From: Mesaphorura yosii
Taxonomy: Eukaryota; Arthropoda; Collembola; Poduromorpha; Tullbergiidae
Assembly: GCA_009869945.1 (NCBI GenBank)
Contig: WIXG01000072.1
Span: forward strand, 186,001 to 250,000
Direction: 5' to 3'
DNA: 64,000 bases
Of the stretch, positions 42,610 through 64,000 are shown in pieces. A program made the position numbers and the translations under genes. Each line of letters starts with the position of its first letter. The stretch's first letter is position 1. The notes under the pieces were generated by a model. It was not told the origin of the DNA. It ran no database searches and saw only the letters and a program-made list of their open reading frames with translations.

Positions 42610-45600
42610 ATGATGAACCTCAAATCGGAGACCCAGAACCCTGACATGCCCAAAGAATGTGCCGGTTGTGGGAAGAAGATTACTGACAGGTTCGTTCAAT
42701 CATACTTTCAAAGCGCTTCCTCTCCTCCGTAAACGAGATAAGTTTGCTATTAGTGTAACCGCTTTTCGTATTCATAAACACCATCAAAATAATAAAGTAC
42801 ATTTATTTCGGCCTTTGCCTGTCACTTACCTCCAGTAATGCGATTTGCAATCCGCTGGTCAGAGTCACAACGGTCAGATACTGGCTCACACCGCTTCTTT
42901 TACAACTTTTTCAGATTCCTCCTCAAGGCCCTGGAAATGTACTGGCACGAAGATTGTCTCAAGTGTGGGTGTTGTGATTGCCGGCTCGGCGAAGTCGGCT
43001 CGACTTGTTATACGAAGGCTAATTTAATTCTATGTAAACGAGATTACCTTCGCCTGTTTGGCAGCACAGGATATTGTGCCGCCTGCTCCAAAGTCATCCC
43101 CGCCTTTGAGATGGTGATGCGGGCCAGAAATAACGTTTATCACCTGGAATGTTTCGCCTGTCAGCAGTGCAATCACAGGTAGGCAACAGTTTCCACCTCT
43201 CGTCGATTCTGTAAAAAAAATTGGACAACTCAGGCTCAGTCAAACAAATCTCGGCATGATTCGATAAGTGAGGAATTCATTTTGATTTGATTAAAGCCGC
43301 ATTCAAAGCAGAATCTTGTTTATTGCCTAACCGGTTTCCTACTCCTAATCCTTCTCTCGCCCCGCTCTTTCCTTACCATGGAGCGAATTTCACCTCAAAT
43401 ATACATTTATGCCACCACTGAAAGTAAGGCAACCACAAAAATATTTCAATTTCGTTTGTAAAAAGTACGGACATACGCATTTATAACTGGTCTTAGCGTG
43501 GTGCAATTGGAACAGAAGAAAGGAAAGCGGCGCAGTCACCGTCATGTGGAAATTAAAATCAAAATTTAATTTTTATCATTTAATAAATCACGTGCAAAGG
43601 GAGTTCCATGCACGCGTTCATGCACACCGCCATATTATTACACGCGGCTCCTTTCCCGGTTTTCTATCTCTCCAACAAATCTCTGCAATGTGTGCCACTG
43701 TGCGGGATTAAAACCCAACGCAACCCGACGCTTGCGTCACCCCAACTCGTACCTCTGGTGCTCGCATGAGCCGGTCTTGTTAATATTGTTGGTTTTTAAA
43801 CGAAACGACGTTCTCTCATTCCAATGGCAAAAAATGCACATACAAAGCTGGAAAACCGTGTCATTTCGCATTATTGCTGGCGCGAGCTGATTTGGTCACG
43901 ACGATAGTTGAGCTGGTTTATCCTTAATTATAAAGGGTGCTCGCATTTGCTCACAAGTTGGTAAGGGAAAAGGAAGGAATAATCCGCAAAAGTCAAGGCG
44001 ATAGGAAACTGTCAGTTGTACGCGTGAGAAGGGCAGGGGTTCAGAAGCTCCTACTGTCTGCACTTTGCGACGGCGAGTATCACGTTAATGTACGCGCTGA
44101 GCTCACTTTCGGCCGGCAGAGCTCGTCAACTGCAGAAACCTCATCATTTTACCACCCTCGGCAATTGTAAAACAATTTCAAAGTTATTAATTTTGACATT
44201 AAAAATGTGTAAAGTTTGGTTAAGTTGTAAATTGTTATATTACAGTTTATTACTTCCACCGCACTCATTCACTCCCAGCCAGCCACATGATCGTCGCGTT
44301 CAAAAATTAATTTCCACGAGTTAAGGCAAGGCCGCCTGCTTTGCCTCCATGACCGCAACGCATCGCAACAAGAGCAGTAAACATTTTAAGAAACTAATTA
44401 AAGAACTTCAATAGTCCATATTATGCAGGTCGCCAAAGTTTAAGGGTTAGAAGCAATAATAAATGGTCTTTTATTATTCGAATGAAATGCGAACGAAATT
44501 TCAGAACACCGAATAATAATTCTGCATTTATGGTACGCGTTCAAAAGGCAAGGGCGCTACATGGTCGAGCTGCTCGATCACCTTATTGCGTGGCTACCTC
44601 GCTTGAGAATTTCCTACCGCTCCGTCTTTGCTCGACATGGATTAGTGAGCGAGCAGAGCAACGTGACTGCTGAGTGAGTTAACCCGTGAAATGGAACTGG
44701 AGAGGGGAGTCTCTCGATCACAATAACAATAAGTGACAATTTGGTCGCTGTACACCTTTTCCAGCTGAACTCTGACTCGCAGTGGCTCGTGCGTTGTATT
44801 TTCTGAAAACAAACTATGTACAATTTCACCATAACATTCATTAAACACGAACAACCGTCCCCGTTTTATTCCATCATTTGTACTGCCACATTGTTTGTAC
44901 ATTTTTGACTCACTCTGTTTATGTCGTCCATGCGTGTACAACCTGCCCAAGTGGTAAAGTTCAGGTGACAGGTTCTCTGGATGCATATAATACACCCTAC
45001 ACATAATAATAGTAATCACGGGCCTTTCCTCATGCAACGACAATTTCACTCGCCCTTTTCTTCGCTCACCAGGCAATGTGCATTGTGGCCTACTCGTGCA
45101 ACGCTAAAAATCGAATCATGCATCACGAGAAGACTAATTTATTGCCGGTCGGTATTGTGGCTCGGCTTGGGCCAAGTTATCGAATCTCAGTCAATGACCT
45201 GCGACTGCAACTTTTAATTCCTGAACCATGGACTTACAAATTCTAACCTGCAGCAATAGATAACTGGTCCTGACCAGCTCTGGAAAGCTGGCACTTAATC
45301 ACTAATCCATGCTTTGCTTTGTTTTAGGTTTTGTGTGGGCGATCGGTTCTACTTGTGTGACAATCGAGTGCTCTGTGAGTACGACTACGAAGAGCGAATG
45401 GTATTTGCCAATATGAACGTTGTTCAAGGCTTGAAGCAGCAGCAAAGGTCGCAGAATCTCCATATGCCAGTAAGTGTCGTAGGTGTTGGTCATTCCCGCT
45501 TTCTAATTACATGGGAAAGCGGCGAGAAAGCAAACTACCGCTTTTGGAGCAATTTGGCTAGAAACTTTTCTTTCATTGTTCCGGCTGCACTTCTGAGTCA

Positions 45601-46842
45601 TAAAGTGAGGAAGTTTTAAAAATAAAGGGAGAAGACGAGAAAGAGAAAAATGGGTTTGGAATGAAATGAATACACAAAGAAAGTTTAATTTTCTGGTCAA
45701 TTGTACAAAAGTTAAGTTCTTTTGCCCGCTTGACTTTCCAGCTCTCTGACTACCAATAACAATGACACATTATAACAGCCTGTGTGTGTATACGAGGGTC
45801 AATTCATAAGTAATGCACATTTTCAAAACGCCGTATTTTTAATTGTGTGAAAAATCAGGACCGGGAATCCTTATCGATGTTTAGGCTAAGAATTGAAGTT
45901 TATCGCCTGAAACGGGCCGGTTTCTGCTCATCAACAGTTGCAAGGGAGCCTTGACGAAAGAAACACCCAGTTAAAAACGGAGTAATTTAACGTGTTGAAA
46001 AGTCGATAAATCGAAAAGTTCAAAAGCGAATTTCTCCGTGAGTTCTTCACGGATTTTAGAGCGGTCTTCGGAAACGTCACCCACACTTAGTACTGTTCAG
46101 AAATAGGCGGACAGGTTCGCAGACGACGATACAAAATTAGGCAGAGCGCGAAGACTGGAAAAATGATAATATCTCGGATCAAATATTTCTGGAAGGGATG
46201 TGCGGTAACTCGTGAAACATGCGCCAAAATATTGGACAAATTGAATAGAGTGATCGGAAGAAATCGTGTAAAATATGCGAAAGACGAGTTTTTGCCCGTT
46301 GCGAAAATTTTCGGACAGGTAACTGTCCTTAACCGAGAATGAACTTCGGTTCTCCCAAATCGCTACCATTATGTAGCCCTAATCTCGCACTACTCGAACA
46401 CCCCTTGCCTGACCCCAAACCGACGCGACTTATTGAGCACCAGAACGTTAAAGCCGCCAAGGGATCGAAAATGGAGGTGTCCGACGGCATCTCAACTCAT
46501 TCTACCATAAGTGAGTCTCTGGCTTGCCTCGTAATTTGGAAATGTGTATTAGGGCTCAAGGAGGTTATGTTGAAAATTAAATGATAAATCCTCAAGTCGT
46601 TGTCAAGTTATGATTAAAAACGCATTTTTCATTATATTTGAATTAACCCTCGTACTTTGCAGATCACACAAAGCAATTCGCAGTTGGTCGATTCTCGATC
46701 CGGCGGACTGGTTGGCGGCGATGGGAGCTGCGGTGGTGGTGGAGGACTGCACAGCCTGAATGGCGGTAGTGGGAGCCTGTCTGACGTGCGTAACTCACAT
46801 CAAACGATCAGCAGAAGTAATGGAGCCATTACATCAGATTAA
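42610..46842 (+). CDS. Bx: LIM-only protein (LMO/Beadex), copy A
   Basis: LMO proteins have two LIM zinc-binding domains and no DNA-binding domain. They bind LDB/Chip and bHLH or GATA partners in the nucleus and titrate LIM-homeodomain complexes. Coding exons are 42610-42689, 42915-43178, 45328-45469 and 46663-46842 (221 residues), all with GT-AG introns in matching phase (2, 2, 0). LIM1 ligands are C17, C20, H38, C41, C44, C47, C67, D70; LIM2 ligands are C81, C84, H103, C106, C109, C112, C131, D134. [20 protein letters not shown] and [17 protein letters not shown] are typical of the LMO1/LMO3/Beadex branch rather than LMO4. The tail after LIM2 (EERMVFANM, then a Gly/Ser-rich 59-residue last exon) is not conserved. 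ATG 42610 is the first in the exon, but the frame stays open to the splice site at 42595, so an upstream exon could extend the N-terminus. The last intron holds a mariner remnant. Confidence 0.94.
45621..45626 (+). terminator. Possible intronic poly(A) signal in LMO-A
   Basis: If the donor at 45470 is not used, the LMO-A frame continues 49 codons to TAA at 45617-45619, and AATAAA follows one base later. This could make a shorter-tailed isoform ending before the mariner remnant. The 49-codon extension resembles nothing I know, and an AATAAA by chance in AT-rich intron sequence is common. Confidence 0.2.
45791..46654 (+). mobile_element. Decayed mariner element in last LMO-A intron
   Basis: The inverted ends begin CGAGGGTCAATTCATAAGTA (45793 on) and finish at 46652; the outer 23 bases of each end match at 19 positions. 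Each end is flanked by TA (45791-45792 and 46653-46654), the target-site duplication of the Tc1/mariner superfamily. The body is 860 bases, against about 1.3 kb for intact mariners, so it is internally shortened. Plus-strand frame 46100-46338 reads like the middle of a mariner transposase: a GKM near 46156, then [17 protein letters not shown], comparable to the family's TVNAETYCETLRRL region. SPNLAL at about 46375-46392 sits where YSPDLAPSD is expected. The N-terminal half is not recognisable, so it is not autonomous. The right end stops 8 bp before the 3' splice site of the last LMO-A exon. Confidence 0.82.
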
Positions 46843-47104
46843 CGTCTATTTGCTGAGTCCAGTTGTTAGAACATTTTAAGTTTCATGTCACTTGTTCGCT
46901 CTCTCAAGACTCTCACTTGACCCAAAACTTCATTACTGCAGTAATCATAGACTGCTTCCAGACCATAAGCACAGAATACTCACTCGTTCCCTTTATCTGG
47001 AACCGAGCCGTGCAACTCAGAACGTATTCATCGGGCATAAACAATCCGAAATAATCTCACGAGGCAAGTGTGCATGCACACACGGACTCATAGCGCACCA
47101 CTCC

Positions 47105-47110
47105 AATAAA
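47105..47110 (+). terminator. Poly(A) signal of LMO-A
   Basis: AATAAA about 262 bases after the LMO-A stop codon, on the same strand; it is the first canonical signal after the last exon. Confidence 0.6.
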
Positions 47111-62552: not shown

Positions 62553-63425
62553 CTAGGGCCCTTCGACAATTCCAGAGTCAGGGCTGGTTGAGATATTGTC
62601 ATCCGCCGCATTGCTGCTGCTTCCACTCAAGACTGAGGCGCTGATGGGATTCATGTGGTGGTGGGCTTGATTGTGCTGCAGCTGCGTGGCGTACATTCGC
62701 TGGTACTCGTCGTAGCTCACTGGGGCAGGATACCTCGCAGCGTAATTAGGATTCGGTCTCGCGTTGCCCCACGCATTCATTATGTGGCCATTTTCTGGGC
62801 TATGGAGGGCTGATGATGATGATGGTGATGACCCATTGACGAGGGGCTCAGCGACTGCAGCTTTGCGGACAGGGAAGGGCTGGTGGCCTTTCTCAGCGTG
62901 CTGTTGGTGGGGCTGACGCTCTCCGTCAGCGACTCCTGGTTGCTGTAACGAAACAGAAGAGGACTTGTAGCTTATTGGACATTCGCAAGTAGCTGTAACA
63001 ATTTATTATTAATTGTGGTATTAAACTAAAATTAGGTAGTAAAAATCATAAAGTACAAGTATTCAAAGTATACCTGGAAATTTGTGACTTGCCTTCTTAG
63101 CAGGGCGAGGTTGGGGCTGTATGCCATATTTGCGAAAACCATTCTTTCTTCATAATCGTAGACGCACAAAATCTTATTTTCACACAAGTAGAACCGATCG
63201 CCAACGCAGAACCTGCCATCAGAGACAAAATTAAGATTGCCATTGATAATTCCACTCGGCCACACATAAGAAGCTTGAGACAACTGTGATTAACTGTACC
63301 TGTGATTGCACTGTTGGCACGCAAAGCATTCGAGGTGGTACACATTGTTTCTGGCTCGCATGACCATCTCAAACGCTGGAATGACTTTCGAGCAGGCCGC
63401 ACAGTAGCCCGTGTTGCCGAATAAT
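62553..63425 (-). CDS. Bx: LIM-only protein (LMO/Beadex), copy B, 3' part
   Basis: This is a second LMO gene, tail to tail with copy A; its start and LIM1 lie beyond 64000. Exon 63425-63300 encodes LFGNTG then [18 protein letters not shown] and the first half of LIM2, identical to copy A from CAACSK to CNHR. Exon 63212 onward encodes [16 protein letters not shown], ending LIM2 with the D of VYDYE, then [20 protein letters not shown]. It has two possible donors: GC type AAG|GCAAGT (end 63093, phase 2) and GT type CAG|GTATAC (end 63074, phase 0). The last exon also has two acceptors (starts 62943 and 62935). GC donor plus first acceptor gives an open frame of 129 codons, including [19 protein letters not shown], to TAG at 62553. 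GT donor plus second acceptor gives [16 protein letters not shown] and stops at 62780. Role as for copy A: a nuclear adaptor for LDB/Chip complexes. Confidence 0.93.
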
Positions 63426-64000
63426 CTTAACAAAAGAAAAGACGAGTTGAAGAAAGCATTTCGCTGGTGAGAAACGAGTTTTCGCTTAGTTTGCACAATA
63501 AAGAACAAGTTAATGAAGCCTCGTTGTACTGCGAAGGATGCTGTTGTTGTTTCAGAGCGGAGAAAGAGGAGAGAAGCGCAGGAGGAGAGATGAGCGATAC
63601 GAAGGTGAAAGTGGTTTCGAGTTGGGAGCCGCGCAGAAAAACTAATTAGTGAAATAGGTCGTTTAAGTTAAAACCGTGCGCAATCGAGCTGCGGATTCGA
63701 GTAAATAGAAGACGGTGCGAAGGTCTTCGACGCGGAGGGAGGCTGGCGTAGTAAAGTAAGTGAAAAAGAGCTGCGGAGCTCTCGCACATTGCAGCATTAT
63801 AGACTATTATTTATAATATGTATAATGTAAAACTCTTAAATTGAAGTCCCTCTGAATTTGGGTTTCCCTCACAAAAACCAATTCAGATTTACATAAAGTA
63901 ATTGCTGAATTGCTACACATTGAATCCATTCGCCTTTGCTTTCTCTTTCAGCTCTTTATTCACATCGTGTTTTTGACATTGAGTTATTGTACTTGTGAGT
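63426..64000 (-). other. Start of an LMO-B intron running off the window
   Basis: The 3' splice site TTGTTAAG|A lies at 63426-63427, preceded on the minus strand by a pyrimidine-rich stretch. No upstream LMO exon (LIM1, FLLKAL or WHEDCLKC) is found to 64000. Copy A has no intron at the matching codon, where YLRLFG is contiguous. Confidence 0.7.

Follow-up and report, generated by a model that had tools for sequence, protein, structure and literature searches.

The window, the whole 64,000-nucleotide stretch of DNA analysed here, holds two paralogous genes, LMO-A (42646-47110, plus strand) and LMO-B (62553-64000, minus strand). They are arranged tail to tail, their stop codons some 15.7 kb apart, and LMO-B continues past the end of the window. 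The upstream exons of LMO-A, which encode two LIM domains, run from the model ATG (42646..45469, plus strand), with the edge of the first exon and the exon borders set by eye. The 209-residue LMO-A model matches PF00412 in two stretches (E 3e-27) and, with the start and borders so chosen, contains LIM only and no homeodomain or other domain. As modelled, LMO-A is an arthropod-like LMO (LIM-only) gene.

The last intron of LMO-A (45470..46662, plus strand) spans 1193 nt in phase 0, with a GTAAGT donor and an AG acceptor. The donor reads CCA followed by GTAAGT, has its final exon base at 45469, and scores above 30 of 47 reference donors from the same genome. Behind the intron, the coding part of the last exon (46663..46842, plus strand) gives a 59-aa Gly/Ser-rich tail plus stop, and an AATAAA that may be a poly(A) signal follows 263 nt past the stop codon (47105..47110, plus strand). 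Most of the intron is a transposable element flanked by TA (45791..46654, plus strand); without it, the rejoined flanks would form an intron of 331 nt. Only 8 native bases separate the element from the last exon.

The paralogue offers an element-free counterpart of this arrangement. The LIM stretches of LMO-B are 89, 90 and 69% identical to those of LMO-A, and its last intron (62943..63073, minus strand) is 131 nt long, in phase 0 and free of any element. Both last introns follow the peptide MVFANM at nearly the same distance (17 codons in LMO-B, 18 in LMO-A), and both are in phase 0. The last donor of LMO-B is weak, with only 3 of the 47 reference donors lower. Beyond its intron lies the coding part of a last exon (62553..62942, minus strand) that encodes a tail of 129 aa plus stop; LMO-B, as annotated, is thereby an example of this intron leading into a tail exon with no element present. 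The simplest reading is that the two last introns go back to one common ancestor intron older than the element. Position and phase are what carry this proposed homology, because the tails share no detectable sequence: BLASTP of the LMO-A tail (59 aa) against the LMO-B tail (129 aa) gave no match, just as had been remarked of the Gly/Ser-rich tail in the original prediction. The two tails would so have diverged or been replaced.

The element and its family

The arms of the element (45791-45815 and 46630-46654) are inverted repeats of 25 nt that are 84% complementary, with TA at each outer end. We found its family at nine loci of the 93-Mb assembly, the window locus counted; this number is a lower bound, as only the best candidates were scored. 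Both ends were found at six of the nine. In all six of these copies the right end reads CCCTCGTA, while the flanks beyond it differ; the left end reads TACGAGGG in five and TAGGAGGG in one (C381). A TA stands at the outer ends of all six, as a target-site duplication would leave it, and the other five copies have terminal inverted repeats like those of the window copy. Six copies with matching ends and differing flanks fix the boundary of the element at 46654 exactly. The geometry first noticed at this site, with the right end plus TA stopping at 46654, the acceptor AG at 46661-46662 and a gap of 8 bp, is therefore confirmed.

The mariner label given to the element on first reading fares less evenly: the TA and the inverted ends agree with it, but no Pfam transposase was recognised in the 23 of 44 translated pieces (at least 40 aa, from four copies) that were scanned. 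The scan covered 10 of 10 pieces from the window copy, 7 of 11 from C14, 3 of 10 from C381 and 3 of 13 from C219, and returned three weak matches below the cut-off, none of them to a transposase. Matches to the transposase family PF01359 number 15 in the rest of the genome, with none on the contig of the window. Classed by its ends, the window element is a decayed member of the Tc1/mariner type, and we call it non-autonomous because the scanned pieces yielded no Pfam transposase. Its nearest relative is the C14 copy, which is identical at 763 of 854 positions (10.7% divergence).

An Rfam search of the window returned nothing at gathering scores. Elsewhere in the assembly, TTAGG, the arthropod telomere repeat, gave 38 overlapping matches (at most one mismatch) against none for the control, on high-numbered contigs such as C900, C1051 and C1114. 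The telomere repeat of tardigrades was absent, and a COX1 search gave no match; taken together, TTAGG and the LMO sequence suggest an arthropod genome.

The acceptor with and without the element

We scored acceptors with a matrix built from 47 introns in myosin genes of the same genome. These introns came from 88 of 93 myosin matches, which gave 60 adjacent pairs and 50 pairs with a candidate intron; three introns were discarded for weak donors. Their borders were picked by score, which biases the reference acceptors to strong cores; two of the 47 end in neither CAG nor TAG, and a few may be wrong. A stricter set of the 30 introns of best-fitting length gave the same order of results. The myosins of this genome are otherwise split by many, mostly short introns; in one (G000:C369:3292-5373, minus strand) the head is found in a single match, within an intronless open frame of 1862 aa.

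The empty site was reconstructed in silico by joining 45790 to 46653, and the result ends in TGTGTGTGTATACTTTGCAG. It scores 6.93 bits, above 31 of the 47 reference acceptors. The present acceptor scores 8.07 bits, above 40 of them. Under the stricter 30-intron set each of the two states lies above 25 of the 30 references. The gain from empty to present site is thus 1.1 bits with the 47-intron matrix and 0.5 bits with the 30-intron matrix. Of the 7344 AGs on both strands of the window, 88 equal or exceed the present acceptor in score and 233 equal or exceed the empty site.

Most of the present score is native. The core CTTTGCAG (46655..46662, plus strand; AG at 46661-46662) lies outside the element ends as fixed by the other copies, and positions -8 to +1 contribute 8.36 bits. 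The part made of element plus TA (-20 to -9) contributes -0.28 bits with the 47-intron set and +0.66 with the 30-intron set. Random genomic 12-mers ending in TA do at least as well as the element end in 1176 of 3424 cases by the first matrix and in 657 of 3424 by the second. The stretch from -20 to -9 scores low in both states: only 9 of the 47 references fall below the present site there, and only 3 below the empty site. This division agrees with the reference acceptors, in which most of the information sits in the final 8 intron bases and the base that opens the exon, all of them native at LMO-A, and the upstream tract carries on average 1.41 of 8.50 bits (30-intron set).

The element did not make the acceptor, because the native core holds 8.36 bits, the element part is close to zero and the empty site already reaches 6.93 bits; any improvement is small. 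We also considered whether ends of this family have a special capacity to make acceptors. When the right end of the window copy was grafted onto reference acceptors (68 TA sites upstream of the 47), a fraction of 0.69 did not drop below the references' lower quartile, and with random genomic ends (13600 trials) the fraction was 0.71, so that no such capacity was seen. The 3' flank occurs at one place only in the assembly, and neither an element-free allele nor a second copy of it was found there.

Among the other family members, an AG 6 nt past one end of the C14 copy (L019:3574-3580) scores 7.04 bits; no clear coding exon was visible by eye, and we put this AG down to chance. A minus-strand frame further on from that copy resembles a GPCR-type receptor. 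At the four remaining copies with both ends no adjacent AG exceeds 2.08 bits, and next to the left end of the element in the window the highest score is 4.05.

Within LMO-A, the acceptor score and the 59-codon frame point towards the last exon without proving it. The length of the frame alone is weak evidence for an exon, because an open frame of at least 59 codons also follows 24 of the 236 window AGs that score at least 6.9 bits. The present acceptor is the top-scoring AG of the last intron, counted from 40 nt past the donor. A TGA within the element (46639..46641, plus strand) stands in the frame of the last exon, and an acceptor further upstream in that frame loses the tail; the tail can therefore be reached only from the AG at 46662 or from one downstream. 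An in-frame AG 21 nt downstream of the acceptor scores 4.13 bits, with 14 of the 47 references lower.

The older part of the intron has readings of its own. An AG at 45741 scores 7.16 bits, slightly above the 6.93 of the empty site, and yields a tail of 5 aa. Reading on unspliced from 45470 to 45619 gives an open extension of 49 aa, a possible alternative C-terminus.

The branch region

The insertion severed a native 3' part of the intron (45742..45790, plus strand; its end is TGTGTGTGTA) from the AG, and the native branch region and upstream tract now lie more than 860 nt away from it. The element contains 48 of the 72 AGs of the intron, all of them between any native branch point and the acceptor. 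Since no more than 8 native bases remain, any branch point close by would have to be in transposon sequence; and if the site is used, the distance of more than 860 nt and the 48 intervening AGs make the element the most likely place for it.

The right inverted end plus TA (46630..46654, plus strand) contains TTAAC at 46643-46647. Its candidate branch A, at 46646, stands at -17, and we regard this motif as the best branch-point candidate, possible though unproven; a further candidate, TTCAT, occurs at -32. In the reference introns the density of YTRAY peaks at -30 to -19 (0.030 per position) and is raised at -18 to -12 (0.021), compared with 0.0084 for the whole window. No YTNAY occurs in the last 50 bases of the rejoined site, against two at the present one; 10 of the 47 references also have none at -50 to -12.

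TTAAC is not a trait of the family. Among the 12 ends of the six copies with both ends it occurs once, at the right end of the window copy. The same 12 ends show TTGAC three times (the left end of the window element among them), CTGAC once and TTTAC once, and some form of YTNAY stands at this place in 6 of the 12. It is conceivable, and we offer it tentatively as rather less probable than not, that the intron has come to rely on a branch point composed of transposon sequence and that a change after the insertion improved the captive TTAAC. If this were true, a gene for a developmental regulator would have its last intron hanging on the end of a transposon.

Origin of the predicted junction

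The original prediction had left two courses open: the insertion might have built the acceptor and helped to create a new C-terminus, or it might have separated an acceptor already in place from the tract that first served it, and taken over from that tract. The first is not supported, in view of the intron apparently shared with LMO-B, the 6.93 bits of the empty site and the little that the element end adds. The second fits the rejoined flanks. It had also been claimed that the tract next to the acceptor is mostly transposon; of the 20 bases concerned, 12 (46643-46654) belong to the element with its TA and the other 8 are native. Replacement of the tract is right in that the upstream tract has been displaced, but the tract counts for less than was supposed, since the information lies mostly in the native last 8 bases. 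If the site is still in use, it is the branch point that the insertion must have supplanted.

We consider it likely that an old GT-AG intron shared with LMO-B received the element later, beside an intact acceptor, and that the insertion was tolerated. On this account the intron was common to both paralogues before the element arrived. A non-autonomous element of the Tc1/mariner type would then have entered at a TA that lay 8 bases ahead of the end of the acceptor core, so that the intron grew from 331 nt to its present 1193 nt and the native branch region and tract came to lie over 860 nt upstream of the AG. Use of this AG in splicing could continue because the intact core, CTTTGCAG followed by A, carries most of the acceptor information and the end of the element happens to be acceptable, if not good, as upstream sequence. 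If the site is used now, the branch point would most likely fall within the element, with TTAAC as the best candidate.

Had the insertion instead created the acceptor and the Gly/Ser-rich C-terminus, with no exon joined here earlier, the lack of a match between the LMO-A and LMO-B tails would be expected, and so would a present site that stands 1.1 bits (47-intron set) or 0.5 bits (30-intron set) above the empty one and has two YTNAY motifs where the empty site has none in its last 50 bases; the length of the tail frame, moreover, is within chance (24 of 236 AGs). We nevertheless judge this course very improbable. The AG, the core and the exon all lie outside an element that ends at 46654, the empty site has 6.93 bits, the element part of the present site contributes -0.28, or +0.66 in the stricter set, and LMO-B has an intron at the same place and in the same phase together with a tail exon of its own.

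A less improbable alternative, though still an unlikely one, is that the insertion damaged splicing, so that the intron is retained or the AG at 45741 is used and the tail exon is lost or rare. Both outcomes would leave a readable end, an extension of 49 aa or a tail of 5 aa behind an AG of 7.16 bits. In its upstream part the present site falls short of 38 of the 47 references, TTAAC at -17 is closer to the AG than the densest motif zone (-30 to -19), and PMC3088655 considers it very likely that a mammalian insertion no more than 20 bp from an acceptor does harm. Against this, no other AG of the intron, counted from 40 nt past the donor, outscores the present acceptor (8.07 against 7.16 bits). 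The element differs by 10.7% from its nearest copy and so need not be fresh, although that split may predate the insertion here. Finally, a misplacement of the element by the assembly is hard to credit: the locus is seen on one contig only, yet the TA...TA ends and the clean rejoined site are what a real insertion predicts, and the sequence of the window copy differs from the other copies compared. The reading to which we return below is thus that of an old intron with a later, tolerated insertion.

Discussion

Elements of this kind have been met in spliced transcripts before. Rushforth and Anderson reportedly described in 1996 that Tc1 is spliced out of C. elegans pre-mRNAs through cryptic sites at or near the element. 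LMO-A resembles those cases in that a Tc1/mariner-type element within a gene would be removed by splicing. The Tc1 cases involve cryptic sites, whereas the LMO-A element lies inside an existing intron that keeps its own donor and acceptor.

Three published cases touch on other sides of the locus. In human and mouse, elements near splice acceptors are described as depleted and often harmful (PMC3088655, 2011). An element within 20 bp of a splice acceptor is what LMO-A has in common with that work; the elements it describes belong to three retroelement families of human and mouse, whereas here a DNA element in an arthropod-like genome has apparently been tolerated. In new primate transcripts of BLOC1S2, MIR and AluSp are predicted to carry the branch point, according to the relevant account in PMC6822395. 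There, as here, transposon sequence is proposed as a branch point by prediction; the BLOC1S2 elements are described as also supplying splice sites and a new exon (PMC6822395), whereas the donor, acceptor and exon of LMO-A are native. The Beadex alleles of Drosophila, as presented in PMC529317, are natural transposons in the 3' UTR of Lmo that stabilise the transcript. They share with our case a transposon in the 3' part of an LMO gene, and they differ in that the Beadex insertions lie in the 3' UTR and the LMO-A element in the last intron (PMC529317). A search of the literature for a like case found none, which is no proof of absence.

The locus looks like a tolerated insertion, mostly ordinary, and not like a place where a new protein end was born; it is no demonstration of how a new exon or C-terminus originates. 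What sets it apart lies in the branch region, for the end of a transposon has probably had to serve in that role for an old intron. If the junction is used, the case would show how little of an acceptor an insertion must spare, namely 8 bases. With its element-free paralogue in the same window, LMO-A also comes with a yardstick for asking whether the end of a transposon can serve an old intron as its branch point.
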